Origin: a virus
IMG/VR virus record: IMGVR_UViG_3300035701_000366
Location: 1-20,357 of that record
Length of the DNA: 20,357 nt
Direction: 5' to 3' (one strand)
The notes beneath the pieces were generated by a model. It was not told the DNA's origin and did not search any database. It saw only the letters and a list, made by a program, of their open reading frames with translations. Of this stretch, positions 5,120-20,357 are shown one piece after another (positions within the stretch are counted from its first letter, which is position 1; the number at the start of each line of letters is the position of its first letter). The translations under genes were made by a program, and so were the position numbers.

Positions 5120-5511
5120 AGCGGTGTCACATCTATTAGTTGAGTAAACTGAATAGTAAAATCGATGGCCCTAGTAGTTCGCGTTTCTTCGGCAATTACA
5201 GGCCACTTCATTTTACAAGTGAAGTAACGCCAGGCACCTGCATTGTCTTTGATGCATGTTCGTATGTACACATCTGCTGACGGCACCCCGGGACAAAATA
5301 GCCTCAACTGGTCTCTCATGATGCGCGGAAGGAAATCCCAATGCCAAGAAGCAATCGGAGATCCTACCCCTCTACTACTACCATCGGCCAAGTCAACTAC
5401 TTCAGTATAAGGTGAGTAGGTCGACTTAGGGTTAGTGACTGGAGTGGCTAGGCTTCCTAGGTCTGCTAGGGAACCGAAACTTGTGCCAATTTCAAAATGC
5501 TGTAAAGTCAT
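5116..5511 (-). CDS. Distal tail / minor tail protein (131 aa)
   Basis: A 131-residue protein between the tape measure and the tail hub, overlapping both neighbours by 4 bases (ATGA type junctions). In siphoviruses this slot holds the distal tail protein or a small minor tail protein connecting the tube to the tip. The sequence has a Gly/Ser-rich N-terminus (FGSLADLGSLATP), a GSPIASWHWDFLPR motif near residue 50 and a strand-rich C-terminal half (WRYFTCKMKWPVI, IDFTIQFTQL). That agrees with a small beta-barrel with little helix. It is shorter than typical Dit proteins (roughly 200-250 aa), so it may represent only the N-terminal ring domain or a different minor tail protein. The role rests mainly on synteny. 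Confidence 0.65.
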   Translation of the reverse strand: MTLQHFEIGTSFGSLADLGSLATPVTNPKSTYSPYTEVVDLADGSSRGVGSPIASWHWDFLPRIMRDQLRLFCPGVPSADVYIRTCIKDNAGAWRYFTCKMKWPVIAEETRTTRAIDFTIQFTQLIDVTPL

Positions 5512-7799
5512 GATGCCATTGCCTCCTGCAGGACCTCAAGCGAGATGGCATATTGATCGCGTCGAATGGCTGCTCGGTCCGCTTCGGTCATACCAAAAAA
5601 TTGAATAGTACGGTTATCGACATAACTGCGACTACTACCCCCCAAAATGTTTGCCTGTGTTAGTCTATTCCCAATACGCTGCTCTGCAAGCTTTGTAGTA
5701 CGATGAGAAAGTATAAACTCGTATCCTTCCTCTCCTACGTTGTGCTGACCAAAGCCGACATATCCACCGGCGGCGTTACCGCCACCTCGGTCGTTGTCGT
5801 TATCTACAAACGTTCCAGCAACTCGGGCTAGCCAATTACGGAAGTTCAGGGTCATAGTTGCGGCTGCATCCTGAACGGCTGCATAGTCACCTAGAATAGC
5901 GTTATCCAAAAGTCTCAGTCGGTCGCGGAAAGCTGTTTCGATAGTCGCAAGTTGTTCTTCATAGGTTTTTTGGAGCGTAATTAATTGCCTGTCGTGGGTG
6001 TCCTTTAGTTCTTTGAGCCTAAGAGCTTCTTCGGCAATCGACCTAGCTCGCTCAATCTGGAAGTCCTGCCATTGGTCAGTCATCCGCTGGTCAAAGGCTG
6101 CTTTTCGTTGTGCACGTTCAAGAGCAAACTCTCTCTCGTTGTCCCGAAGCTTTTGGGCTGCCGCCTTGTTGACGCGCTCCACTTCTAGTAGGTAATCTTC
6201 CTCTTTGCGCTGCCGCTCTATTTCGTATCGCTCGTCTTCGCGGAGCATCTCCAAGCCGTTGCGAGATTCTAGTAAGTCTCGCTGAGTTAGTTCGTGATCT
6301 TCGAGATCGCGCCGCATCTCGATTTGGTGGTCCTGCTCCATCTCGAGAAGCTTTTGTGAGTTGTCTCTAGCCGCCTTGATGCGATCTTCATAATAACTGC
6401 GTTCAATCTCACTCTCGTTTTGTTGAAAGTCTCTATACGCCCGGAAGGTCTTCAGGTTATAATTATCGTCGGCCTCCATGCGCTGCTTGGCATACTGTGC
6501 TACGATGTCGGTCCGCTGCTTCTCGTACTGTTCTTCGATCTGGGCGCGTTGCTTTGCATACTGAGTAGTTGTTTCTAATAATTGCTTTTGGTAGTCTTTC
6601 CAAGCATCCAAATTAGCGGCCGCAAACTCGTAGTACTTATCAACTGGAGCCTCTTTCTTAGCACCTACAAGACCCATAAACTTGCCGACCTTTATCATTA
6701 AGTCGTCAAAGCTATTACCGACCTCATCTACTAAAGGAGTACCGTTCTTAATGGAATTCCACAAACCGCCGAACGCACTCCCTACGCCTGCAACTAGTAT
6801 AGTAGTGAGTCCCTTGAGGGATGCACCTAAGTCGATACTGTGCTTATTTACGTACCAAAGCTCTACTGCAAGAATAGCCAAAGGGGGAGCTAAAGCAGAA
6901 ACGGCTAACGCGGCTACTCCCGCAGCCGATGCAATAGCGGCAGAAACAATACTTAGGCCTCCAGTAGTAGAGGCCCCAGCAACTGCCCCTCCAGTAATTG
7001 CTCCTCCGGTAACTGCCTCCCCTACTACTTTAAGACCACCCTGGGCAACGGCGATTTTGTCGGCAGCAATTCGAGCCGCTGTTACTGTAGCATAAGTTGC
7101 TACACTACCTTCAAACTCTTTAGTCGCCGCTGCATATACTGCAGCTGCAGCCACTTCGGCGTTTGTTGCCAAGATATAACCAAGATCGGCATAAAGTCGG
7201 AAGCCTTTAGCGGCTATAAGCGCCAAAGTAGAAACAGCTAAGACAACCCCTGTGGCTGATAGTGCAGCTTTTACTAGTTCAGGGTGAGCTGCAACAAAAG
7301 TCGATACCTTACCTGCAACACTTGCGGCTAGCTGTAATGTCGGAAGGGCCTCTTGGGCAATTGTGGCTCCAACGCGGGCATACGACTCCTGCAGGCTTCG
7401 TGTTGCAGCTTTCCATTCATAAGTAACCTCAGTGCCTACCTTGGCATTTGCAATGTAGTCTGTAGCGGCCTTTGTCATCAGGCCCATTACGGCTGCACTA
7501 GCAACAACTGCCGTCTGACTGATTTCGAGTAGACTCCGACCTTTAAACTGCTGTCGACGCCATTCAGACTGTGCCTGGCGGGCCTCCTCTTGGACTGCGT
7601 GCTGGCCTGCAAGATAAGAACTGACAACTTTCTGGTTGGCCTTGATTAGGTCTTCGGCGGATTGCTTTTGGTCCTTATTACTCTTCTTGACCACCTCATC
7701 CAAAGACTTCAAGGCAGCCGCAGCCTTCTTACTACCTGTGGAGATCATATCCTCAAGTAGTACGCGTACCGCCATTTCCAGAACTTTAATTGGAGGCAT
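5508..7799 (-). CDS. Tail tape measure protein
   Basis: A 763-residue protein directly downstream of the frameshifted tail chaperone pair, the standard tape-measure position. The SD AAGGAG lies 4 bases before the ATG at 7799. Residues 1-90 are charged and helical. Residues 95-110, 181-200 and about 283-345 are hydrophobic Ala/Gly/Val-rich segments that could insert in the host membrane during DNA entry. Residues about 398-635 are a very long charged coiled coil (repeated EQYEKQR/AQYAKQR, EEDYLLEVER). The C-terminus carries the GGYVGFGQHNVGEEGYEFIL stretch (678-697), a motif common at tape-measure ends. Using the usual 0.15 nm per residue, the tail would be about 114 nm (inference). The gene overlaps the preceding ORF by 14 bases. 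No peptidoglycan-hydrolase insertion was seen. Confidence 0.92.
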   Translation of the reverse strand: MPPIKVLEMAVRVLLEDMISTGSKKAAAALKSLDEVVKKSNKDQKQSAEDLIKANQKVVSSYLAGQHAVQEEARQAQSEWRRQQFKGRSLLEISQTAVVASAAVMGLMTKAATDYIANAKVGTEVTYEWKAATRSLQESYARVGATIAQEALPTLQLAASVAGKVSTFVAAHPELVKAALSATGVVLAVSTLALIAAKGFRLYADLGYILATNAEVAAAAVYAAATKEFEGSVATYATVTAARIAADKIAVAQGGLKVVGEAVTGGAITGGAVAGASTTGGLSIVSAAIASAAGVAALAVSALAPPLAILAVELWYVNKHSIDLGASLKGLTTILVAGVGSAFGGLWNSIKNGTPLVDEVGNSFDDLMIKVGKFMGLVGAKKEAPVDKYYEFAAANLDAWKDYQKQLLETTTQYAKQRAQIEEQYEKQRTDIVAQYAKQRMEADDNYNLKTFRAYRDFQQNESEIERSYYEDRIKAARDNSQKLLEMEQDHQIEMRRDLEDHELTQRDLLESRNGLEMLREDERYEIERQRKEEDYLLEVERVNKAAAQKLRDNEREFALERAQRKAAFDQRMTDQWQDFQIERARSIAEEALRLKELKDTHDRQLITLQKTYEEQLATIETAFRDRLRLLDNAILGDYAAVQDAAATMTLNFRNWLARVAGTFVDNDNDRGGGNAAGGYVGFGQHNVGEEGYEFILSHRTTKLAEQRIGNRLTQANILGGSSRSYVDNRTIQFFGMTEADRAAIRRDQYAISLEVLQEAMAS

Positions 7800-11112: not shown

Positions 11113-12174
11113 CTAACCTGTAATACTTGGATCGGCGTACGTCGCATTTGCGAAGTATAGTACTGACCCGTTTGTTCGGGTCCAGACGCCAACACCGAAT
11201 TCAGCTTCCATCTGGCGGGCATACAACGGATAGTCGCCATTCTCGGCGGCGATCCGCAGTCCCTGCAGTGCGGTGGCAGTCCGCTGTCGATAAGCCAAAG
11301 GCTTGTTGGGGTCAGCTGCATCCCACGCAAATACGTAGTTTGCAATCGCCCACGGCTTGACCTGAATCTCGGCACCTTCAAAAATACCGATGGCGCGATT
11401 GTCCAGTCGACTGATATCCAAGGTAGTGCCTGGAGTATCAGTTACACGGTAGATCACACGAGGATCAGGATATGCAACAAAGCCCGTTAATAGGCGAACT
11501 GCAGCTTCGTCGGTTTTACTAATTGCGGCAATGACACGTCCGCCGTGACCATGCTCGACGACATCGTCGATACAAGCTTTGAGGAATGCTGCAGTGAGGG
11601 AAGCTTCGCCTTCGTAGTGAGTGTGCGATGCAGGAACAAAGACTTCACCGTTTGGTCCGTTCGGGATCGCAACGGAGTCAGCGTTCAGGAACCTCTTGAT
11701 GCTGAGAGTCACGTTGTCCACCAGGTGATCGTAGAACGTGTAGTTCGTGGATCCGAAGATGGCTTTCTTGAGCTCCATCTGAATCCGACGCCAATGAGCT
11801 GCTTCGGCCGCTAACACCATTGTGGCCATATCGGCCGGGGTGTTATTCTGCAGCCACTTATTGGTCCAACCAACATTGAATTGGAACGAGCGAAGTGGGA
11901 AGCCAACTGTGGCACCTGGCTGCGAGCGTTGAGTCGGTGCAAGACCGTACTCGTCAACCTCAACCATGTCCCCACCAGCTGATGTTCCGTAGATCCGCTG
12001 TCGATCGGTGGTTACTTCGCACATCTCGCCAACCATCTCTGAGACAATGGCGTTATGTGCTTCAATGTCGGCCAAGAGCACCTTTTCAATCGTGTTCAGG
12101 CCGTAGGCTGCAGCACTTGAAAAACGTGCGGCAAGTAAATCTTGAATATCGTGGGCACCAGTCTGTAATGTCAT
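11113..12174 (-). CDS. Major capsid protein (HK97-fold candidate)
   Basis: A 353-residue protein after scaffold and decoration genes, the expected capsid position. ATG at 12174 follows AAGGAG; an upstream ATG pair in the same region leads to a stop after two codons, so this start is firm. The N-terminus (residues 1-45, LLAARFSSAAAYGLNTIEKVLLADIEAHN) is helical. The middle contains ELKKAIFGSTNYTFYDH, a candidate E-loop/spine region. The C-terminal half has the NRAIGIFEGAEIQVKPWAIANYVFAWD strands and a QGLRIAAENGDYPLYARQMEAEFGVGVW ending, which resembles the A-domain end of HK97-fold capsid proteins, including the LYARQM.AEFGV pattern familiar from this class. No N-terminal delta domain is present, in agreement with the separate scaffold gene. 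A hairpin follows the stop. Confidence 0.85.
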   Translation of the reverse strand: MTLQTGAHDIQDLLAARFSSAAAYGLNTIEKVLLADIEAHNAIVSEMVGEMCEVTTDRQRIYGTSAGGDMVEVDEYGLAPTQRSQPGATVGFPLRSFQFNVGWTNKWLQNNTPADMATMVLAAEAAHWRRIQMELKKAIFGSTNYTFYDHLVDNVTLSIKRFLNADSVAIPNGPNGEVFVPASHTHYEGEASLTAAFLKACIDDVVEHGHGGRVIAAISKTDEAAVRLLTGFVAYPDPRVIYRVTDTPGTTLDISRLDNRAIGIFEGAEIQVKPWAIANYVFAWDAADPNKPLAYRQRTATALQGLRIAAENGDYPLYARQMEAEFGVGVWTRTNGSVLYFANATYADPSITG

Positions 12175-13110: not shown

Positions 13111-13758
13111 TTATATTCCACTACCATAGCGACCACGTTTCTTCTTCTTTAGTTCTTCCAAACCTGCACCCTGAGGACTCCGTCCGTGGTCGCCGCTATT
13201 CAGATTGTATCGGGGGCCCCCTTCCTGGGTCAGTAAATACGGTTTCGCTTTCGCAAGAACCTTTAACGCATCATCCACACCTGTTACTTTCCCGTTAGCG
13301 TCGATCTCTAACGCTGTACGGTCAATAAGTGTGTAGGCGTCTTGCGGGTCTTCAAAGTTCGCCTTTGAGGCCGCAGCGAGAATTGCACTTTTAAGACGTT
13401 CATCTTTAAGTTGCTCTTGCAACTCTAATGCCTTATCTTCGGCAACTTTCTTAGCCAAGGCTGCTCTCTCAACCTCAGTTAGTGCAGCTGCCTTACGTAC
13501 ATCTTCGGCGTCCTGGAGGACCTTTAGCTGTGCTAAGGCTTCCTTGCCGGTTTTACTAATACCACGCTCACTCACAAGTGCAGATTTGAGGTTTGTGGTG
13601 TAACCCTCAATCTCTTTTGCAACTTCGGGATCCAGTGTTGCGAGGTATGCATTAAATGTCTCTAAAGGGTCCTTCCTTTCAGCTGCCTTTTTAGCAGCTT
13701 CGTCTGCTGTAGCTTTATCAGCTGCCGCTTTGGCTAGTTCTTCCGGTGTTGGGTCCAT
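13111..13758 (-). CDS. Capsid scaffolding protein
   Basis: A 215-residue protein directly after the portal gene, overlapping it by 41 bases in another frame. The ATG at 13758 has AAGGAAG 9 bases upstream. Composition is typical of scaffolds: residues 1-30 are Ala/Lys/Glu-rich (ELAKAAADKATADEAAKKAA), 70-130 are predicted continuous coiled-coil helix (LKVLQDAEDVRKAAALTEV, EDKALELQEQLKDERLKSAI), and the last 30 residues are basic (GLEELKKKKRGRYGSGI), which in known scaffolds binds the capsid protein. It should form the internal core for procapsid assembly and then leave. No protease domain is fused and none is seen nearby, so exit without cleavage, or a protease encoded elsewhere, is implied. 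Confidence 0.8.
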   Translation of the reverse strand: MDPTPEELAKAAADKATADEAAKKAAERKDPLETFNAYLATLDPEVAKEIEGYTTNLKSALVSERGISKTGKEALAQLKVLQDAEDVRKAAALTEVERAALAKKVAEDKALELQEQLKDERLKSAILAAASKANFEDPQDAYTLIDRTALEIDANGKVTGVDDALKVLAKAKPYLLTQEGGPRYNLNSGDHGRSPQGAGLEELKKKKRGRYGSGI

Positions 13759-15385
13759 TTGTAATACTTCCTTCTGGCGTCACGCCACTAGTAGCCGGAC
13801 TCTGTCCGGGTTGATTATCCGCCGGTGGAGTAGTCTCACCTGCCGGATTGGGAATCGGTTGACCGCTTGCATCAACCTGAATAGTATTTGGCGTAGGAGC
13901 ACTAAGCTTCACCTGCCAACCTAACTCATTAAGTAACTGAGTGAGTATCTCTTGAGCTTCCGGCGACTTTGAAATCCATGGCCAGATCTGACCCATAATG
14001 TCCAACCGGTACTCATCCGTCTTTTTCATAACCGCAATCTGTTCTTGTGAATAGCCTGCTTCACTCCAAATGGTCTCTTGGGGTACGCCGAGGTCTTTCT
14101 TTTTCTGGAGGTCTTCAAGGGTCTCATTGTCGGCCCAAATAGTATCAAAATCAATAAGTTCGTCTAGGTTTGCACTTCCAAAAACGTTAGCAATTGCGCG
14201 AGCCATCACTAAGCATGATTCCCAAGCGTCTCCAAATAGTACCCTGCGGTCCTTAGCCTTCTTCTTCAATTGCATGTCTTGCATCTTAAGGGTCTCGGCA
14301 GATGCAATAAGCTTAGTTGTAGTGAATCGCGAAGTCGGCGTACTAGTAATCTGTGCTGCAGATACAACCAAGTCTTGCAATGTATTGATCAACGGTGTCG
14401 GGTCGCTACCCTGAACTACATCCAATTTACCACCGGGATCTTTTGTACCAATAAACTGCCCAGGACCGACCTTTAGTAAATTTGATCCGTCAGCCTTTGG
14501 AGGCTCGCCATCAGTAGTAGGATACCAACCCATAGCTACTAACATTTGAAAGGCCGTGAGGTCGTTAGACGCTAAGACGTCTACAAGAGTCTTGTTTACT
14601 GCATCTTGTAATGGAATAGCATCCCATGCTTCAGGCATTAGACCAACATTCCGGAAATGGATTACCGGGATTCCCATCGGAGTACCATCAGATTTGGTCC
14701 ATGGTATTGGCCACGGCTCGGGAGGTATCTCGGGACGTAAAGGATCCGGCTCTTCGTGATACTTAGTCCACGCTGATGTGTAAATCCATTTCTCGATATG
14801 GTCCGGATAGTATACCGTACGACGCTGACTAATTGTCGGCTGACCCTGGAGGTTATAGATTGTTTGAGTCCACTGTTTCACCGCACATATTGCTTCTTGA
14901 TTCACGTCATCGTTCTTATAAAGCATCCAGCAACCCTGGCCATCTCCATCCGTATCCAAATCGGTAAAGCGGTAGTTATGTATAAACCGAGGACGTAGAG
15001 CTGTATAGTCCCAATCTACAATGACAAAGGTTTCCCTGTCGGACAAAGCAGATTCGTGGACTTCTGCTTGAATTGTGTTCATCTTATTCTTAGTCCAAAG
15101 ATCCCATGCCCATGTAGCTTGAGCCTTCAAGCCCTCCGCGTTAGCCTCCTCTGTAGTGTTAAAGCCCGAAACTGATAATTCATCCTTTACGGCAAGTACA
15201 ATTGTGCGACAAATATTCATACAAAAAGAACGATTTGCATGAAGATCCAAGAACTCCGCCACACGAGGAGTCATGTATGTAGATTGGTTGCCATTGTGGT
15301 AATTACGAGCAAGTGAGACTACTGCATTGTCTTCCTTTATCGCGTTGACAAGAGCTTCAACATACGCCATTGTAAGAGTATTCAT
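13718..15385 (-). CDS. Portal protein
   Basis: A 555-residue protein overlapping the large terminase stop by 4 bases (ATGA). The order terminase, portal, scaffold, capsid is diagnostic. Features agree with the SPP1 gp6-type portal family: N-terminal YHNGNQSTYMTPRV and NRSFCMNICRTIVLAVKDEL segments, a clip/stem region with IPVIHFRNVG and LQDAVNKTLVDVLASNDLTAFQMLVAMGW, and the helix-rich RRVLFGDAWESCLVMARAIANVF. The last about 55 residues are a disordered Pro/Thr/Gly/Ser tail (TPPADNQPGQSPATSG), part of which is encoded in DNA shared with the scaffold gene. It forms the dodecameric channel at the capsid vertex, docks the terminase and nucleates assembly. The size is normal for the family. Confidence 0.9.
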   Translation of the reverse strand: MNTLTMAYVEALVNAIKEDNAVVSLARNYHNGNQSTYMTPRVAEFLDLHANRSFCMNICRTIVLAVKDELSVSGFNTTEEANAEGLKAQATWAWDLWTKNKMNTIQAEVHESALSDRETFVIVDWDYTALRPRFIHNYRFTDLDTDGDGQGCWMLYKNDDVNQEAICAVKQWTQTIYNLQGQPTISQRRTVYYPDHIEKWIYTSAWTKYHEEPDPLRPEIPPEPWPIPWTKSDGTPMGIPVIHFRNVGLMPEAWDAIPLQDAVNKTLVDVLASNDLTAFQMLVAMGWYPTTDGEPPKADGSNLLKVGPGQFIGTKDPGGKLDVVQGSDPTPLINTLQDLVVSAAQITSTPTSRFTTTKLIASAETLKMQDMQLKKKAKDRRVLFGDAWESCLVMARAIANVFGSANLDELIDFDTIWADNETLEDLQKKKDLGVPQETIWSEAGYSQEQIAVMKKTDEYRLDIMGQIWPWISKSPEAQEILTQLLNELGWQVKLSAPTPNTIQVDASGQPIPNPAGETTPPADNQPGQSPATSGVTPEGSITNGPNTGRTSQSGS

Positions 15386-16833
15386 TTATGCTCCACGTAA
15401 CTAACTGCAAACGAGCCTTGAGGCTTCTTTTCAGCTGCTGTCACTGCTAGCATGAATGCAACCGCATAATCGTCTGGACTTCCTTCAGGAGCCCTTAGGG
15501 TTGAGCCTTCAATTGAAGTTAGCTGCTCCATAGTGGTACTAGAATGAATGACCGCACGACTTTCGCGAAGTGTATCTGCACCTGTAGAATACATTAGGTC
15601 TTTGCTTTTGGTAGTAGTCTGCCAGCCAAGTCGAAGATCTTCGCCTACCAAAAGTGCACTACGATAATTATGTACATCTGCAAGAGACAGAAGTACCGCA
15701 TGTCCATGATTATTACGCTCGATCAATAAAGATGCCCGATAAAACATTTTGGAGAGGGTATAGAGATAGCCCGCAAATACATTTGGTTCTATCTTCCCCG
15801 CTAGCGTAGCAACCTCTTCTCGAGTACTCAAATCGACTACACATGCTACAGAATCGTCACTACCCGGATTACCCTCTGCAGGATCGGCACCAACAATGTA
15901 TTGGTGACGAAAGTCTGGCATTACAAACAACTTCAAAAAAGGCAGTCCGAATGAGGTATCCTTCAACGGCGGCATTTCTTTATAGCATTTCATTATCCAA
16001 GCGTACGGAACGCGACGATCCAATTGTGGAGGTGCTAAAGCTTCATCGTCAGTTGAAGGATACTGTTGATGTAGATCGTCTAGACTAGTTGTCCGCGATA
16101 GGATATCCGCTTTTTGTCTATCATACCAAACTTGATCGCGATCAGGTCGAACGTACCACGGCAAAAAGATTGCCTTCCAAGGACTAGTGCCCGATCGGGC
16201 TGCTAGATACGTCTTCTTGAAGAGGCTATTAGGAGTAGTATTATCTGCACGACTTAGCAAGCACATACCACCACCCCCATCGATGGTAGGCTTCACTGCA
16301 TTCATTAAAGCTTGCAAGTCAGGTACCAAATCAGCCTCATCTACAAATGCAAACGATGCGGTATAGGAATCACCCGCTGTGGTCGGAAAGCCGTATGCAA
16401 TCGACCCATTGCTCAATGCCCACTCATGTGAGGCATCTGCTAAGACTGCCTTAACTCGCATCCATTTTGGTAATCGCTTATATACGCCACGAAGGCGTTG
16501 ATTACCTAGTAAATAGATTGCTTCATTTTCTCGTCTCGAGAAGACCAAAGCCGTAAAGACAGGCTTGAAGAGCATCTTCCATAAAATAAAACAAAGGACT
16601 AACCATGTCTGGCCTAGTTGACGCGCCTTGAGAACAACGTTAAGCGGGTTCGTAACTAGTGATTCTAGTACACCAACTTGCTCAGGCCATAATCGAAAAG
16701 GGATCCATGCTAGTAGTGTGGCGTCGTAGATTTGGCAGTAGGTATATATAAAATATACAGCCGATTGACTACACTTTAGCCATTCAAGCCTAATCTCCTT
16801 ATCGGAGAGGGCATCTAGTGGGTCTCTTTCCAA
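15382..16833 (-). CDS. terL: Terminase large subunit
   Basis: A 483-residue packaging motor. The ATPase domain has a deviant Walker A at 69-77 (KARQLGQTW): the usual GKT lysine is Gln 75, with Lys 69 earlier in the loop, a known variation among phage terminases. Walker B is FAFVDEAD at 161-168 (D165, E166). The C-terminal nuclease domain shows VGADPAEGNPGSDDS (D317), LLIERNNHGHAV (E372) and GSPDDYAVAF (D454/D455), the three acidic metal-binding positions of the RNase H-like fold. The start is TTG at 16833, nested 19 bases inside the small terminase gene, because no ATG occurs in frame before residue 87. It cuts concatemeric DNA and pumps it into the procapsid through the portal encoded next. 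Family assignment is secure; headful versus cohesive-end packaging cannot be told. Confidence 0.93.
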   Translation of the reverse strand: MERDPLDALSDKEIRLEWLKCSQSAVYFIYTYCQIYDATLLAWIPFRLWPEQVGVLESLVTNPLNVVLKARQLGQTWLVLCFILWKMLFKPVFTALVFSRRENEAIYLLGNQRLRGVYKRLPKWMRVKAVLADASHEWALSNGSIAYGFPTTAGDSYTASFAFVDEADLVPDLQALMNAVKPTIDGGGGMCLLSRADNTTPNSLFKKTYLAARSGTSPWKAIFLPWYVRPDRDQVWYDRQKADILSRTTSLDDLHQQYPSTDDEALAPPQLDRRVPYAWIMKCYKEMPPLKDTSFGLPFLKLFVMPDFRHQYIVGADPAEGNPGSDDSVACVVDLSTREEVATLAGKIEPNVFAGYLYTLSKMFYRASLLIERNNHGHAVLLSLADVHNYRSALLVGEDLRLGWQTTTKSKDLMYSTGADTLRESRAVIHSSTTMEQLTSIEGSTLRAPEGSPDDYAVAFMLAVTAAEKKPQGSFAVSYVEHK

Positions 16834-17351: not shown

Positions 17352-17412
17352 AATTAAGTATAGCCCACAAAAGTCCAAAAAAACCCTATGTAGTAAAGGA
17401 CCTATAAAGAAG

Positions 17413-17440
17413 CTTCCAAAAAGTAGTAGTAGGTTATAAT
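17413..17440 (+). promoter_or_regulatory. Rightward promoter of the accessory operon
   Basis: A perfect TATAAT (17435-17440) stands 16 bases after a weak -35-like CTTCCA (17413-17418). Transcription would start near 17447, about 20 bases before ATG at 17468, and the ribosome site AAAAAGGAG falls in this short leader. The weak -35 suggests need for an activator or regulation. The surrounding 17352-17467 separates the divergent operons. A TATACT at 17356-17361 on the other strand is the best leftward -10, but it has no matching -35. Confidence 0.5.
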
Positions 17441-17467
17441 TCTTTATCATTCAAAAAGGAGACCAGT

Positions 17468-17908
17468 ATGGATGCCGACAAAGAAGCGGAAATTGTTCAA
17501 ATGCACTTAGCCGGATTGAAGGCTCCGGCAATTGCTAGTGAGTTGGAAATCTCGCCTTCAGCTGTACGAGCAGTACTTCGTAAGACGACCAAACCCCAGC
17601 CCGTTCATATACTCGACGAGAATGCCATCATCCAGGCATATGCGTCGCAAGTACCTGCAGGGATGATACTAAAAGAGCATAGCATCAGTTATGCTACTTT
17701 ATATCGTGTACTTGCTGCTCACAACATAGAAACCCGAGCAGCTCAAGGTGCTTCGGGTCGAGTCAAACAATTAGAAGCTGCCGTTCAAATGTACCAAGCA
17801 GGATCACCCCTTTGGGCTATCCTACAAGAAACAGGAATAGCCCAACCAACTTTACATGCCGAACTCCATAAGCGAGGCATTGACTTACGAAGGCCGAGGA
17901 TGCTATGA
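17468..17908 (+). CDS. Triple helix-turn-helix DNA-binding protein
   Basis: First gene of the rightward operon, 146 aa, with AAAAAGGAG before ATG. Three related helix-turn-helix units can be aligned by eye: residues 6-40 (IVQMHLAGLKAPAIASELEI...VRAVLRK), 51-90 (IIQAYASQVPAGMILKEHSI...LYRVLAAH) and 102-143 (AVQMYQAGSPLWAILQETGI...LHAELHKR). Each has the pattern hydrophobic helix, turn, I-A/I-L, recognition helix beginning S/A-x-x-T/A-V/L. They resemble the resolvase/transposase-type helix-turn-helix with no catalytic domain attached. The location beside the divergent promoters suggests a regulator of one or both operons. A role in recognising the packaging or replication site is the alternative, since small terminases use similar folds. 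Confidence 0.75.
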   Translation: MDADKEAEIVQMHLAGLKAPAIASELEISPSAVRAVLRKTTKPQPVHILDENAIIQAYASQVPAGMILKEHSISYATLYRVLAAHNIETRAAQGASGRVKQLEAAVQMYQAGSPLWAILQETGIAQPTLHAELHKRGIDLRRPRML

Positions 17909-18135
17909 CAACATATACTGTATGTGCCCTTTGTGGCAGGGTAATTTTGCCGGATCAGCCCATTCATGTATGTCCCAGTGAATGGCGTCATTCATCATCA
18001 ATCCCTCATTGCGGTGGATATGCTCGAAGTGTGGAAAAATCATTGAATACAAATATTGGCTCGCTAAATACAGGAAGGAGGAGAAATGAGAGTTGTCGTT
18101 GCAAGCGAGGAGTTCATCAAAAATCTAGCCAATAG
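17905..18135 (+). CDS. Small cysteine-rich protein, probably frame-disrupted zinc ribbon
   Basis: ATG overlaps the previous stop (ATGA). As read, the product is 76 aa and starts MTTYTVCALCGRVILPDQP with a CxxC at 7-10 and another Cys at 23. After about residue 27 the translation looks non-coding (Ser, Asn and Arg-rich, RRRNESCRCKRGVHQKSSQ), and the last 50 bases overlap the next gene. In the -1 frame the same DNA gives a much more protein-like continuation ending exactly at the next gene's ATGA junction (see 17982-18089). The likely ancestral gene is a zinc-ribbon protein of about 60 residues with two CxxC knuckles, now split by an indel near 17982-18012. A sequencing error or two genuine overlapping genes are alternatives. 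Confidence 0.45.
   Translation: MTTYTVCALCGRVILPDQPIHVCPSEWRHSSSIPHCGGYARSVEKSLNTNIGSLNTGRRRNESCRCKRGVHQKSSQ
17982..18089 (+). CDS. Second half of zinc-ribbon protein or 35-aa overlapping gene
   Basis: In the -1 frame relative to the 17905 ORF, ATG at 17982 follows directly on a TGA and opens 35 codons: MASFIINPSLRWICSKCGKI, then IEYKYWLAKYRKEEK. It contains a clean CxxC knuckle followed by an aromatic, Lys/Glu-rich helix and stops at TGA 18087-18089, overlapping the next gene's ATG (18086) as other junctions in this operon do. There is no convincing ribosome site. It is best read as the C-terminal half of the gene that begins at 17905. Confidence 0.45.
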   Translation: MASFIINPSLRWICSKCGKIIEYKYWLAKYRKEEK

Positions 18136-18337
18136 ACTTATTGCAGTAGCACGCGGAACCATTATTGAAGAAAGTTCTGTACATTGTTCTTTGTGCTTCA
18201 AGTGTTGGACAGCATTTACTTACGAAAAAGAAGATGTGCTTGAAACTAGGCACCTTGAGTTGGGAAAAGCTCAAGAACTTGTCATATGTCCTACTTGTGA
18301 CGCAAAAATGTATTCTAATAAAGAGGAGAAGAAATGA
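18086..18337 (+). CDS. Zinc-ribbon protein (83 aa), unknown function
   Basis: Preceded by a very strong AGGAAGGAGGAG site. The N-terminal 28 residues are a helix (SEEFIKNLANRLIAVARG). Then CSLCFKC (34-40) and CPTC (69-72), roughly 30 residues apart, form a plausible zinc-binding ribbon with WTAF after the first pair. The end is charged (KMYSNKEEKK). Small zinc-ribbon proteins are common among phage early/accessory genes and often bind nucleic acid or host proteins, but no specific family is recognised. The stop overlaps the next ATG by 4 bases, so it is translated as part of the same operon. Like its neighbour, it carries two CxxC pairs, raising the possibility of a duplicated pair of genes. 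Confidence 0.7.
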   Translation: MRVVVASEEFIKNLANRLIAVARGTIIEESSVHCSLCFKCWTAFTYEKEDVLETRHLELGKAQELVICPTCDAKMYSNKEEKK

Positions 18338-18597
18338 CTACGATAATGGTTGGGTCAGGAGAAGCCGTTTCATTTGAGACGTGGGTGACGGTAAAGATAG
18401 ATGGGATGACTATTGTATTTGTGTCCAGCACTGAATTAAAAGTTGTTTGGACATACAAAGGTAAACCAGTGATCGAACAGTTGTCCCATTACGTTTCTAT
18501 ACCGGGATCATCTGTTTGTCTAGATATAGAACGTGGGACTGGGGCTACTTTCACCGCAACAATGAGAATGAGGAGTGATGATGATCCTAGCTCTTAA
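18334..18597 (+). CDS. Small beta-rich protein (87 aa), unknown
   Basis: The ATG overlaps the preceding stop (ATGA) and an AAAGAGGAGAAA site is present. The 87 residues alternate in a beta pattern (FETWVTVKIDGMTIVFVSS, ELKVVWTYKGKPV, SVCLDIERGTGATFTATMRM), which suggests one compact beta barrel or sandwich with no membrane segment and no catalytic motif. The final 17 bases overlap the next gene. I do not recognise the family; an inhibitor-like or structural accessory protein is possible but not supported. Confidence 0.6.
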   Translation: MTTIMVGSGEAVSFETWVTVKIDGMTIVFVSSTELKVVWTYKGKPVIEQLSHYVSIPGSSVCLDIERGTGATFTATMRMRSDDDPSS

Positions 18598-18997
18598 CAT
18601 CGACCACCTAACTGGCAACTTTGGTGACTACGCCTACCCCAAAGGTATTGACGATCGCCACGCTGCGACCATCCGGTTCTTAATGGATGTTGTCGACCTA
18701 GCAATAGTATTCATCCACAATAGTCCTCCCTATCGGGAGGCCGAGAAAGCCTGTATCATCAATTGGGCTAGTGCCACTACCAACTGGTGTACAATGCACG
18801 ACCTAGTAGACCTCTTAAAGTTTACTAGACACCTTCCGGATGCCGACGTGTTTGCAAGTGCTTCCTTGATCGACTGGTCGAGCCCAAAAGTAGCTCGGGT
18901 GGACCAACTGATCCGGGGCTGGCAAGCCGCAAGCACAGGGCAGGAAGGAACATATCGATTCCTCGAAACCTCTCAATTTGAAAGGAGCGTAAAATGA
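18581..18997 (+). CDS. Hypothetical protein (138 aa)
   Basis: The frame could open at GTG 18575 or ATG 18578, but AGGAG occupies 18571-18575, so ATG at 18581 (MILALNIDHLTGNFG) is best spaced at 5 bases. The product begins with a hydrophobic strand then Asp, as in several alpha/beta enzymes, followed by DRHAATIRFLMDVVDLAIVFIHNSPP. That segment is helix plus strand plus a polar loop. The middle has HDLVDLLKFTRHLPDADVFASASLIDW. It could be a small alpha/beta fold, but no complete motif is present and the family is not recognised. It overlaps the genes on either side by 17 and 4 bases. Confidence 0.6.
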   Translation: MILALNIDHLTGNFGDYAYPKGIDDRHAATIRFLMDVVDLAIVFIHNSPPYREAEKACIINWASATTNWCTMHDLVDLLKFTRHLPDADVFASASLIDWSSPKVARVDQLIRGWQAASTGQEGTYRFLETSQFERSVK

Positions 18998-19293
18998 ATC
19001 CTGACTTTGAATTATCACTACTTGCCTTCTGGCTCCTACGTCGCAAGGCCCGAAAGGAATGTAAATCGCGCGGTTCGCTCTCTGTGAGCGAATTATCAGA
19101 ACTCCGTAATGGCCTGGAGAGCTGGCGCCTCAGTCTAAGCAGGACAGGGCTAGACGGAATTGCCCGCATTGGGCTCAAGCGCCGGGTAAATGCGTTGGAT
19201 ATTGCCGTACGTCGAGAGTTAGCTAGATTGCCATCATCTACTTTTAGTGTAGCCCAGAACTACGGCATCCCGACTCTGCCCGACGAGAAGTGA
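18994..19293 (+). CDS. Small helical basic protein (99 aa), last gene of the operon
   Basis: ATG overlaps the previous stop by 4 bases and AAAGGAG lies just upstream. The 99 residues are mostly helical and basic: LLAFWLLRRKARKECKSRG, VSELSELRNGLESWRLSLSR, RRVNALDIAVRRELARL. A Pro-containing tail (GIPTLPDEK) ends it. Amphipathic basic helices suggest a nucleic-acid-binding or oligomeric protein, yet no family is recognised. A Rho-independent terminator follows 35 bases after the stop, so this is the end of the rightward transcription unit. Confidence 0.65.
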   Translation: MNPDFELSLLAFWLLRRKARKECKSRGSLSVSELSELRNGLESWRLSLSRTGLDGIARIGLKRRVNALDIAVRRELARLPSSTFSVAQNYGIPTLPDEK

Positions 19294-19327
19294 GGACGGG
19301 GGTAGTTTTTACTAACCCGCAAAAATT

Positions 19328-19364
19328 TAGGTCACGAGGTTTCGATCGCGTGGCCTATCTTTTT
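19328..19364 (+). terminator. Rho-independent terminator of the rightward operon
   Basis: TAGGTCACG (19328-19336) pairs with CGTGGCCTA (19349-19357), nine base pairs with one G-T wobble, and is followed by TCTTTTT. The left side has AAAAATT, so the reverse strand also reads as stem plus T run, and the structure may stop transcription in both directions. It stands 35 bases after the 99-aa gene. Confidence 0.75.
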
Positions 19365-19388
19365 GGGTGTAGGGTGTAGGGCGTAGGG
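19365..19388 (+). repeat. Tandem GGG heptamers, potential G-quadruplex
   Basis: GGGTGTA occurs twice, then GGGCGTA, then GGGTGT: four GGG runs (19365, 19372, 19379, 19386) separated by exactly four bases each. This satisfies the usual G3N1-7 quadruplex rule on the plus strand. It begins directly after the terminator T run. Confidence 0.65.
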
Positions 19389-19506
19389 TGTTGACCATGA
19401 GATTGGTGGCCATGGGCAAAAAGTTGAGCGCTATAATTTATTAGCTGATATGGTATTTCTAGCGCGAAAAACTCGGTTGATCCTAGCATGTAATTTTCAG
19501 GTTTCG

Positions 19507-19535
19507 TTCATAATTATATGTTATTATTATATTAT
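19507..19535 (+). promoter_or_regulatory. Candidate promoter of the GC-rich right segment
   Basis: TTCATA (19507-19512) and TATTAT (19530-19535) are 17 bases apart. Each matches the consensus at four or five of six positions, and the predicted start, about 19542, falls on the edge of the palindrome at 19543-19560. The tract is so AT-rich that chance matches are likely. Confidence 0.35.
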
Positions 19536-19542
19536 ATAAGTT

Positions 19543-19560
19543 ACATCAATCAATTGATGT
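19543..19560. promoter_or_regulatory. Operator-like palindrome
   Basis: ACATCAAT (19543-19550) and ATTGATGT (19553-19560) are perfect inverted copies around a 2-base centre. It lies just downstream of the candidate promoter, where a bound protein would block transcription. The half-site ACATCAAT recurs at 20131-20138 before the second copy of the leader. Confidence 0.5.
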
Positions 19561-19589
19561 GTAAAATATCTTATATGACGTTGCACGAC

Positions 19590-19613
19590 GACCCTAAGGA
19601 GGTCACAATGAAC
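19590..19613 (+). repeat. 24-nt leader repeat, copy 1 (ribosome site and start)
   Basis: Identical over 24 bases to 20146-20169. It consists of GACCCTAAGGAGGTC, the spacer and the start ATGAAC. AAGGAGGT is a full-length anti-SD match, and GACC/GGTC can pair so that the Shine-Dalgarno lies partly in a small stem-loop. Confidence 0.8.
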
Positions 19614-19940
19614 GCGAAAGAAACCGATTTGAAAGGTGTTTGCAAGATCACGGGTTTGAGCGAGATGCGGGTACGAAACGCGACGAGGTGGGGGGATCTG
19701 AAGTCCCACCTGGAACCGATCAAGGAGGGTGTCAAAACGGAGCACCGGGTATACGCCTTAGCGGATATCCAGACTTGGAGGGCCGCCTGCGGAACCCACA
19801 CCAAACGGGAGGACGGGCGCAACAAGTACACGATCCACATGACCCCAGACGAGTACGCCAAGGTGCAGGAACTCCTCAAGACCGCCAAGATGGAGTTGCC
19901 ACTGGCGCGCGCGAACAAGGTAAAGGCGACCGCCGAATAA
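19608..19940 (+). CDS. MerR/excisionase-like DNA-binding protein (110 aa)
   Basis: The frame is open from 19518, but ATG at 19608 follows AAGGAGGT by 4 bases and is chosen, giving 110 aa. Residues 5-60 fit a small winged helix of the excisionase/MerR-like type: LKGVCKITGLSEMRVRNATRWG, then a wing with GVKTEHRVYALADIQTWRA ending in the typical aliphatic-W helix. Residues 72-104 (KYTIHMTPDEYAKVQELLKTAKM) form a second strand-helix unit that could be a dimerisation element. It should bind DNA and may act on the palindromes on either side. The gene is clearly richer in GC (about 61% in 19681-19800) and in G/C-ending codons than the structural genes. Confidence 0.7.
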   Translation: MNAKETDLKGVCKITGLSEMRVRNATRWGDLKSHLEPIKEGVKTEHRVYALADIQTWRAACGTHTKREDGRNKYTIHMTPDEYAKVQELLKTAKMELPLARANKVKATAE

Positions 19941-20063
19941 CGAACAGCGATAACGAACATAGAGGGTACCCCAAGGGGGAGGGGTACCCCCCAAGTGGGA
20001 CGACCGATCGATGATCGATCGTACCACGTGGGACCACTCACGAAGGAGGTACCAATAAGACAG
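19941..20063. other. Dyad-rich gap with a 17-nt palindrome
   Basis: CGATCGAT (20005-20012), a central G, and ATCGATCG (20014-20021) form a perfect 17-nt palindrome. To the left, GGGTACCCC (19964-19972) and GGGGTACCCC (19981-19990) are two near-identical palindromes; GTGGGAC occurs at 19995 and 20028. The dense symmetry could give a terminator-like fold, a regulator array or an origin. No T run follows. Confidence 0.55.
20043..20050 (+). promoter_or_regulatory. Full-length Shine-Dalgarno before an ATA codon
   Basis: AAGGAGGT with a 4-base spacer ACCA leads to ATA at 20055, exactly where the other two leaders (spacer CACA) have ATG. The next in-frame ATG is 13 bases away at 20064, rather far for efficient initiation. 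Confidence 0.55.
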
Positions 20064-20147
20064 ATGACCTACATGAGACGAGTTCGACAGGGGCCCCCGA
20101 CGCCCACGCTGGACAGTTACCTAATAGGTAACATCAATGACTTATGA
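20064..20147 (+). CDS. Tiny ORF (27 aa, or 30 aa from ATA 20055)
   Basis: ATG at 20064 opens 27 codons (MTYMRRVRQGPPTPTLDSYL, then IGNINDL) and stops at 20145-20147, overlapping the first two bases of the second leader repeat. A strong Shine-Dalgarno supports translation nearby, although its spacing fits better to ATA at 20055 (reading IRQM first). The product is basic at the start with a PPTPT turn. It may be a leader peptide coupled to the next gene or a decayed start. Function unknown. Confidence 0.45.
   Translation: MTYMRRVRQGPPTPTLDSYLIGNINDL
20116..20132. promoter_or_regulatory. Palindrome GTTACC-N5-GGTAAC
   Basis: GTTACC (20116-20121) and GGTAAC (20127-20132) are perfect inverted arms around TAATA. 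It overlaps the half-site ACATCAAT and precedes leader copy 2, so it may be an operator or a small RNA hairpin inside the tiny ORF. Confidence 0.5.
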
Positions 20148-20169
20148 CCCTAAGGAGGTCACAATGAAC
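20146..20169 (+). repeat. 24-nt leader repeat, copy 2
   Basis: Exact copy of 19590-19613, including the Shine-Dalgarno, spacer and ATGAAC start. Here the flanking T and A add a fifth pair to the small TGACC/GGTCA stem. Confidence 0.8.
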
Positions 20170-20262
20170 AGTAGCATAAAGAGTACGTTAGCGACCATAG
20201 TCGCCTATGTGATTATCTATGTCGGCCTGACGATGTTTCTAAACTGGCCACCATTCGCATAA
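20164..20262 (+). CDS. Single-span membrane mini-protein (32 aa)
   Basis: ATG at 20164 sits 4 bases after AAGGAGGT and opens 32 codons to TAA at 20260-20262. The protein, MNSSIKSTLATIVAYVIIYV then GLTMFLNWPPFA, has a short polar N-terminus with one Lys, a hydrophobic helix (residues about 9-26) and a WPPFA tail, so it is a predicted single-span inner-membrane peptide. The next gene's AAGGAG overlaps its stop region. Candidates include a superinfection-exclusion peptide, a small toxin or a holin-like/regulatory peptide; no family is recognised and no lysis genes are near. Confidence 0.7.
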   Translation: MNSSIKSTLATIVAYVIIYVGLTMFLNWPPFA

Positions 20263-20272
20263 GGAGTTTGAG

Positions 20273-20357
20273 ATGAACAAGGAACAAAGAGCCGAATACG
20301 AACGACGGGCGGACCGAGAAGCGTCAGCCCATATCTGGGAGAGCCTCCCCCACATCC
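20273..20357 (+). CDS. Start of a small charged protein, cut by the right edge
   Basis: ATG at 20273, 6 bases after AAGGAG, opens 28 codons up to the window edge: MNKEQRAEYERRADREASAH then IWESLPHI. The visible part is a strongly charged helix. Ten bases separate it from the stop of the membrane mini-protein, so both are in one transcription unit. Nothing more can be said about its function. Confidence 0.6.
   Translation, partial: MNKEQRAEYERRADREASAHIWESLPHI

Follow-up and report, generated by a model that had tools for sequence, protein, structure and literature searches.

The hairpin and the G-rich heptamer array that meet within positions 19328-19388 are quite probably two unrelated elements adjoining in one 314-nt spacer, which runs from the stop codon at 19293 to the next gene at 19608: an ordinary terminator, and a tolerated heptamer repeat grown by slippage. 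The window, by which we mean the whole stretch of DNA analysed, is an IMG/VR virus record of 20,357 bases, for which no longer contig was found, and it is probably a fragment of a tailed-phage genome. Its leftward genes make up a tailed-phage packaging and structure module according to PHROGs, and a set of small rightward genes starts at 17468, the first protein of which has a resolvase-type HTH (Pfam HTH_7, 6e-11). The spacing of the small genes suggests that they form one transcription unit. The features are as follows.

5508-7799, leftward, tape measure (PHROGs)
11113-12174, leftward, major head protein (PHROGs)
13718-15385, leftward, portal (PHROGs)
15382-16833, leftward, terminase large subunit (PHROGs)
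18575-18997, plus strand, second-last ORF of the rightward small-gene set, no family found (PHROG, Pfam)
18994-19293, plus strand, last ORF of the rightward small-gene set, 99 aa, stop codon ending 34 nt before the putative terminator stem
19297-19319, plus strand, small predicted hairpin between stop codon and terminator (folds of 19295-19365 and 19295-19400)
19328-19357, plus strand, putative terminator stem-loop, 9 pairs (one G-U) and up to 3 inner pairs
19358-19364, plus strand, T-run TCTTTTT of the putative terminator, read from the sequence
19365-19391, plus strand, heptanucleotide tandem repeat GGGTGTA x3.9, GGGTGTAGGGTGTAGGGCGTAGGGTGT, third unit GGGCGTA, predicted to be quadruplex-capable
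19412-19428, plus strand, 17-nt block ATGGGCAAAAAGTTGAG (ATGGGC-AAAA-TTGAG), 15 of 17 positions the same in the related loci L130 and L131, where it lies 3' of their terminator; it anchors the homology of the spacers
19608-19940, plus strand, next downstream gene, 110 aa, HTH_17 match with E 0.0059, below the Pfam cut-off

The ORF at 18994-19293 had no PHROG match at 0.001 and no Pfam match at 0.1. Rfam gave no match up to E = 1 in 17400-20357, and there is no tRNA in the window. The capsid of the window had no match at 1e-5 among 50,697 phage records, and its terminase showed less than 30% identity in the best 20 of 1936 matches to phage records; on the evidence of these two proteins the window phage is remote from sequenced phages. 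A tblastn search with the 19608-19940 protein found matches in L131, L136 and other loci of the phage family described below, and this small HTH-like family has two copies in L131 (341-718, 2264-2632) and two in L136 (3101-3400, 5157-5462). A perfect 24-nt repeat, GACCCTAAGGAGGTCACAATGAAC, at 19590-19613 and 20146-20169 gives two ORFs an identical Shine-Dalgarno-like leader and start codon. Just 3' of the stop codon of the 19608 gene there is a hairpin of 13 pairs with an 8-nt loop (19960-19993), which the scan reported as terminator-like on the minus strand.

Direct reading confirmed what the initial annotation had described at 19328-19388, namely a nine-pair stem and a T run followed without gap by four GGG tracts. 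The stem arms, TAGGTCACG (19328-19336) and CGTGGCCTA (19349-19357), form nine pairs, one of them G-U, and the 12 nt between them can add three inner pairs. The predicted fold of 19325-19364 has an energy of -15.3 kcal/mol on the plus strand (40 nt) and -9.2 on the minus strand, and the better folding of the plus strand fits the gene direction. By criteria chosen after seeing the site (9 pairs, 4 G-C, 6 T in 7) this is the only terminator in the window, one on the plus strand and none on the minus strand; hairpins passing these post hoc criteria occurred at a mean of 0.001 per copy in 2000 first-order Markov copies of the spacer. The terminator at 19328-19364 was missing from the list of the standard scan, presumably because of the loop limit of 8 used there. 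The site has the features of an intrinsic terminator: a stable hairpin containing G-C pairs is followed at once by a T-run, and it is situated just 3' of the last gene of the unit, past the stop codon at 19293, with the stem starting at 19328, a place comparable to that in L131. Judged by its form, by its place 34 nt past the last stop codon and by the hairpin of similar energy found there in L130 and L131, the element looks like an ordinary intrinsic terminator closing the rightward small-gene set, in agreement with the initial annotation. Compared with typical intrinsic terminators the hairpin itself is unremarkable, and the difference lies in the adjoining G-rich array.

The array, GGGTGTAGGGTGTAGGGCGTAGGG (19365-19388), abuts the T-run with zero gap. 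Its four GGG tracts, the first at 19365, are spaced at 7 nt, and the last one finishes at 19388; by Tandem Repeats Finder the repeat continues to 19391, with 3.9 copies of GGGTGTA and 90% matches. The loops are indeed uniform in length, 4 nt each, the first two reading TGTA and the third CGTA. By the usual definition of a G4 motif (GGG tracts, loops of 1-7), the window has no other on either strand. In 1000 dinucleotide shuffles, motifs with uniform 4-nt loops were found at 0.001 per window, those with uniform loops of any length from 1 to 7 at 0.005, and G4 motifs of any kind at 0.182. The claim that the regular spacing looks evolved rather than random thus holds in so far as the array is not a chance string, but tandem slippage yields regular spacing without selection. 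The G4Hunter score is 1.58 over the 24 nt of the array, which is the top-scoring 25-nt stretch of the window, and the RNA quadruplex estimate for the 24-mer is -8.36 kcal/mol. On these predictions, quadruplex formation by the array is plausible. The GC content per 100 nt from 19200 to 19699 (0.52, 0.49, 0.39, 0.28, 0.52) points to an AT-rich stretch downstream and to no sharp GC-rich edge, so the edge of a GC-rich segment, at which the array had been placed, is not seen in the local profile.

A search with the capsid found four relatives in IMG/VR with 72-79% protein identity; the terminase of the window alone found none there. Wider searches with terminase and capsid led to a family of 72 loci (L128-L199). 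The loci are parts of contigs, and the count of arrays covers those parts, in a set of 70 sequences (761,509 bases) that includes the window and from which L132, L181 and L182 were dropped as duplicates of contigs already included. Among these 70 sequences the GGGTGTA array occurs only in the window. Three relatives cover the spacer (L130, L131 and L136), and none of the three has the array. In L130 and L131 a hairpin of 12 pairs, two of them G-U, closes the small-gene set and runs into TTTTCTGTT, with no array; over 40 nt the L131 hairpin has -16.8 kcal/mol, an energy similar to that in the window, although the hairpin itself is different. L136 has the downstream gene family, and the same scan found no array and no comparable terminator before that gene. 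L128 and L129 have other genes at the corresponding place. Because L130 and L131 are identical where aligned, the absence of the array represents about two independent lineages. No close strain of the window phage was found. The initial annotation had proposed to look for the array in close relatives with identical terminators and to count its absence against a function; the array is absent, but this speaks only weakly, since the relatives are about 66% identical to the window in DNA and their terminator is at the same place, not identical.

The ATGGGC-AAAA-TTGAG block stands in otherwise diverged spacers. A further match with up to 2 mismatches was found among the family loci only in L175, besides L132, which is the L131 contig. 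The block is possibly a regulator or promoter site. The corresponding spacer of L136, around 5682 on the reverse strand, contains direct repeats of 9 nt, CCTTAACAA, in place of the heptamer array.

In the explanation that we favour, the hairpin and T-run would stop transcription of the small-gene set ahead of the 19608 gene. The GGGTGTA array would have originated within this lineage of phages, the most likely mechanism being slippage during replication of a short seed, for example a single GTGTAGGG, and it would be tolerated in intergenic DNA, as it sits between genes. Between the hairpin and the block L130 and L131 have GCCTGGCGTGTAGGGGTAAAA, in which a single GTGTAGGG matches the array over 8 nt. 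This was equalled in 37 of 5000 shuffles of the L131 segment and in 27 of 3000 random L131 segments; at about 1% by chance, and chosen after the fact, the match hints at a seed and proves nothing, and we regard it as suggestive only. Missing in the few comparable viruses, the array looks like a copying stutter and not like a working part. We infer that the hairpin terminates transcription, that slippage produced the array, and that the array is recent and neutral. A counterpoint to neutral slippage is that the array begins exactly where the T-run stops, a placement that chance would not necessarily produce.

Heptamer arrays of any sequence were found in three of the 70 family sequences (the window, L149 and L154) and in none of five simulated sets. 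Arrays with periods of 6, 9, 10 and 11 numbered 5, 12, 10 and 9, against simulated means of 0, 0.4, 1.2 and 3.6; as these periods are commoner, we do not claim a preference of the family for 7-nt repeats. A looser scan showed a G-rich heptamer run in L184.

The same heptamer is found elsewhere, GGGTGTAGGGTGTAGGG being a repeat in some cellular genomes. A scan of GTDB genomes for a 17-mer of the repeat gave at least 116 stretches, and 86 of the 116 listed have cyanobacterial titles. In even samples of genomes, 17 of the 292 from the phylum of G003 (Microcystis) contain the 17-mer, the richest of them with 102 overlapping matches (backward control 0 of 292); the counts are 2 of 201 for the phylum of G298 and 1 of 198 for that of G002, and each of the three includes the centre genome, picked for matching. 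The 116 listed stretches yielded 134 arrays that were read. A T4+ run within 14 nt upstream was found for 5 of the 134, compared with 8.0% of random positions. The combination of a T4+ run and an upstream fold of -10 kcal/mol or better, a test that the window's own site passes, was found for none of 131 arrays (those with 45 nt of upstream sequence, which three of the 134 do not have) and for 29 of 2615 random positions. Random placement would lead one to expect about 1.5 such cases among 131 arrays, so the zero means that there is no enrichment and does not amount to avoidance. Eighteen of the 134 arrays lie inside a mechanical ORF of at least 150 aa. Where the others have an upstream ORF on the same strand (mechanical, at least 100 aa), 35 of 55 start no more than 50 nt from the stop codon of that ORF, and 39 of 55 no more than 71 nt from it. 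It is usual for such repeats to lie shortly 3' of a gene, and not usual for them to lie behind a terminator.

Cyanobacteria have short tandemly repeated repetitive (STRR) heptanucleotides. The window array is like them in being a head-to-tail heptanucleotide, and GGGTGTA itself is frequent in some cyanobacteria; it differs from them in that the capsid search described below gave no link between the window's phage family and cyanobacteria. It is useful to compare the array also with the G-rich heptanucleotide repeats of Xanthomonas and Nostoc, which have the units GGGNATC and GGGGA(C/T)T (Rehm et al. 2015, PMC4692102). According to that paper, these repeats prefer four units, are over-represented intergenically, form quadruplexes in vitro and have no known function; three heptanucleotide repeats of Calothrix are mentioned as well. 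As described there, they share with the window array the 7-nt unit, the GGG in each unit, the number of four units, the intergenic position 3' of an ORF on the coding strand and the capacity for quadruplex formation. They differ from it in the unit, which is GGGTGTA in the window, and the array is thus of the same kind but outside the two repeat families of PMC4692102. In addition, the window has a single array in a 20,357-base, probably incomplete record, whereas the repeats of that report are present in many copies genome-wide, and the window array is 71 nt from the stop codon, whereas theirs are commonest at 0-50. The placing of the GGGTGTA cellular arrays agrees with what the same paper says of other G-rich heptamers. 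The kind of repeat is already known, and the window adds a different unit sequence, in a phage. The 17-mer was absent from the texts of the open-access literature searched, and among the matches listed there no title concerned a heptanucleotide quadruplex array in a phage.

In IMG/VR the 17-mer was found in 10 stretches, compared with 4 for the reversed pattern. Arrays of GGGYGTAGGGYGTAGGGYGTAGGG were found in 2 stretches, and four of the 10 stretches (L002, L004, L005 and L007) belong to one virus group. With these numbers, we rejected the idea that the array is a common phage element. The members of this group, which is distinct from the window's family, have GGGTGTA arrays in common and fall into two subgroups that are about 90-95% identical nearby. 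In L004, L005 and L007 a second array is inverted across a T-rich centre, and L002 ends at the first array.

It is conceivable, but in our view unlikely, that array and terminator act together: RNA polymerases that escape the hairpin would be blocked by a G-quadruplex in the non-template strand, or in read-through RNA, which would serve as a back-up stop shielding the downstream gene. The lack of a gap between T-run and array would suit such a role, as would the fact that both neighbour genes have the G-rich strand as their coding strand; so would the G4Hunter score and the energy of the 24-mer given above. The fold of a 44-nt RNA that leaves the hairpin out (19357-19400) also prefers the quadruplex, at -9.06 versus -6.40. 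When the hairpin is in the same RNA, however, the quadruplex gains only 0.06 kcal/mol (81-nt fold with the terminator) or is not chosen (106-nt fold). An intrinsic terminator releases the polymerase at the T-run, and this release precedes transcription of the array. Terminated transcripts would therefore end before the array, which would matter only for read-through polymerases or for the DNA, whose displaced strand might fold its four G tracts into a quadruplex. The suggestion that the array strengthens termination finds no support: the terminator of L130 and L131 does without it, and the cellular arrays lack terminator linkage. A more elaborate version appears to us very unlikely. In it the array is a read-through sensor whose quadruplex, formed in the RNA of escaping polymerases or in the non-template DNA, gives a second, K+-dependent stop, which the lineage acquired through slippage and retained as insulation for the regulator-like 19608 gene.

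Acquisition of the array by recombination from host DNA rich in GGGTGTA repeats, cyanobacterial or other, we consider decidedly unlikely. It is true that the heptamer is genome-wide in some cyanobacteria, as the title and phylum counts above attest, and the cyanobacterial bias of the 17-mer had prompted a reading of the window phage as a cyanophage. This was demoted to a rival explanation, because the HIP1 sequence GCGATCGC occurs once in the window (0.26 expected) and the capsid profile of the family had no match among 292 genomes from the Microcystis phylum, a set without any positive. Moreover, the flank just 3' of the array is phage spacer that the window shares with L130 and L131. G298 is a Flexilinea MAG, and in its phylum, which we take to be Chloroflexota, a narrow capsid alignment (A2) matched 0 of 301 genomes and a wider one (A5) 2 of 350; the two capsid-matching genomes have no GGGYGTAGGGYGTAGGG. 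The stronger capsid match is G833, with an MCP 44.7% identical, and seven other window proteins had no match at 1e-3 in 24,399 of the 34,398 bases of the G833 contig. Since the capsid gene is the only one recognisable in that stretch, the link is weak, and by these matches the host of the phage family leans weakly to Chloroflexota. A capsid homologue with one in-frame TAG was seen in L200 (G302:C1:166079-167140), a virus record of 204,685 bases.

Iterons are longer direct repeats, of about 17-22 bp, beside a replication initiator gene. That the array is iteron-like and marks a replication origin, as the initial annotation had also proposed, is extremely improbable: it does stand before an AT-rich stretch (28% GC, 19500-19599) and a gene whose HTH match is weak, but its unit has only 7 bp, it is absent from relatives whose spacer aligns and which have a gene homologous to the downstream one, and there is no replication initiator among the proteins scanned (10 by PHROG, 7 by Pfam) in a window that covers only part of the genome.

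A role of the array in termination, replication or stalling is supported by no test here. With the array read as a slippage-grown repeat beside an ordinary terminator, the site offers a worked example of how to test such pairs, by asking whether relatives retain the terminator when the array is missing and whether the same heptamer goes with terminators in other places. It shows that a G-rich heptamer repeat can arise beside a terminator and look designed, which by itself has little significance. If the array were a back-up stop after all, we would have in it a simple example from nature of a terminator supplemented by a quadruplex.
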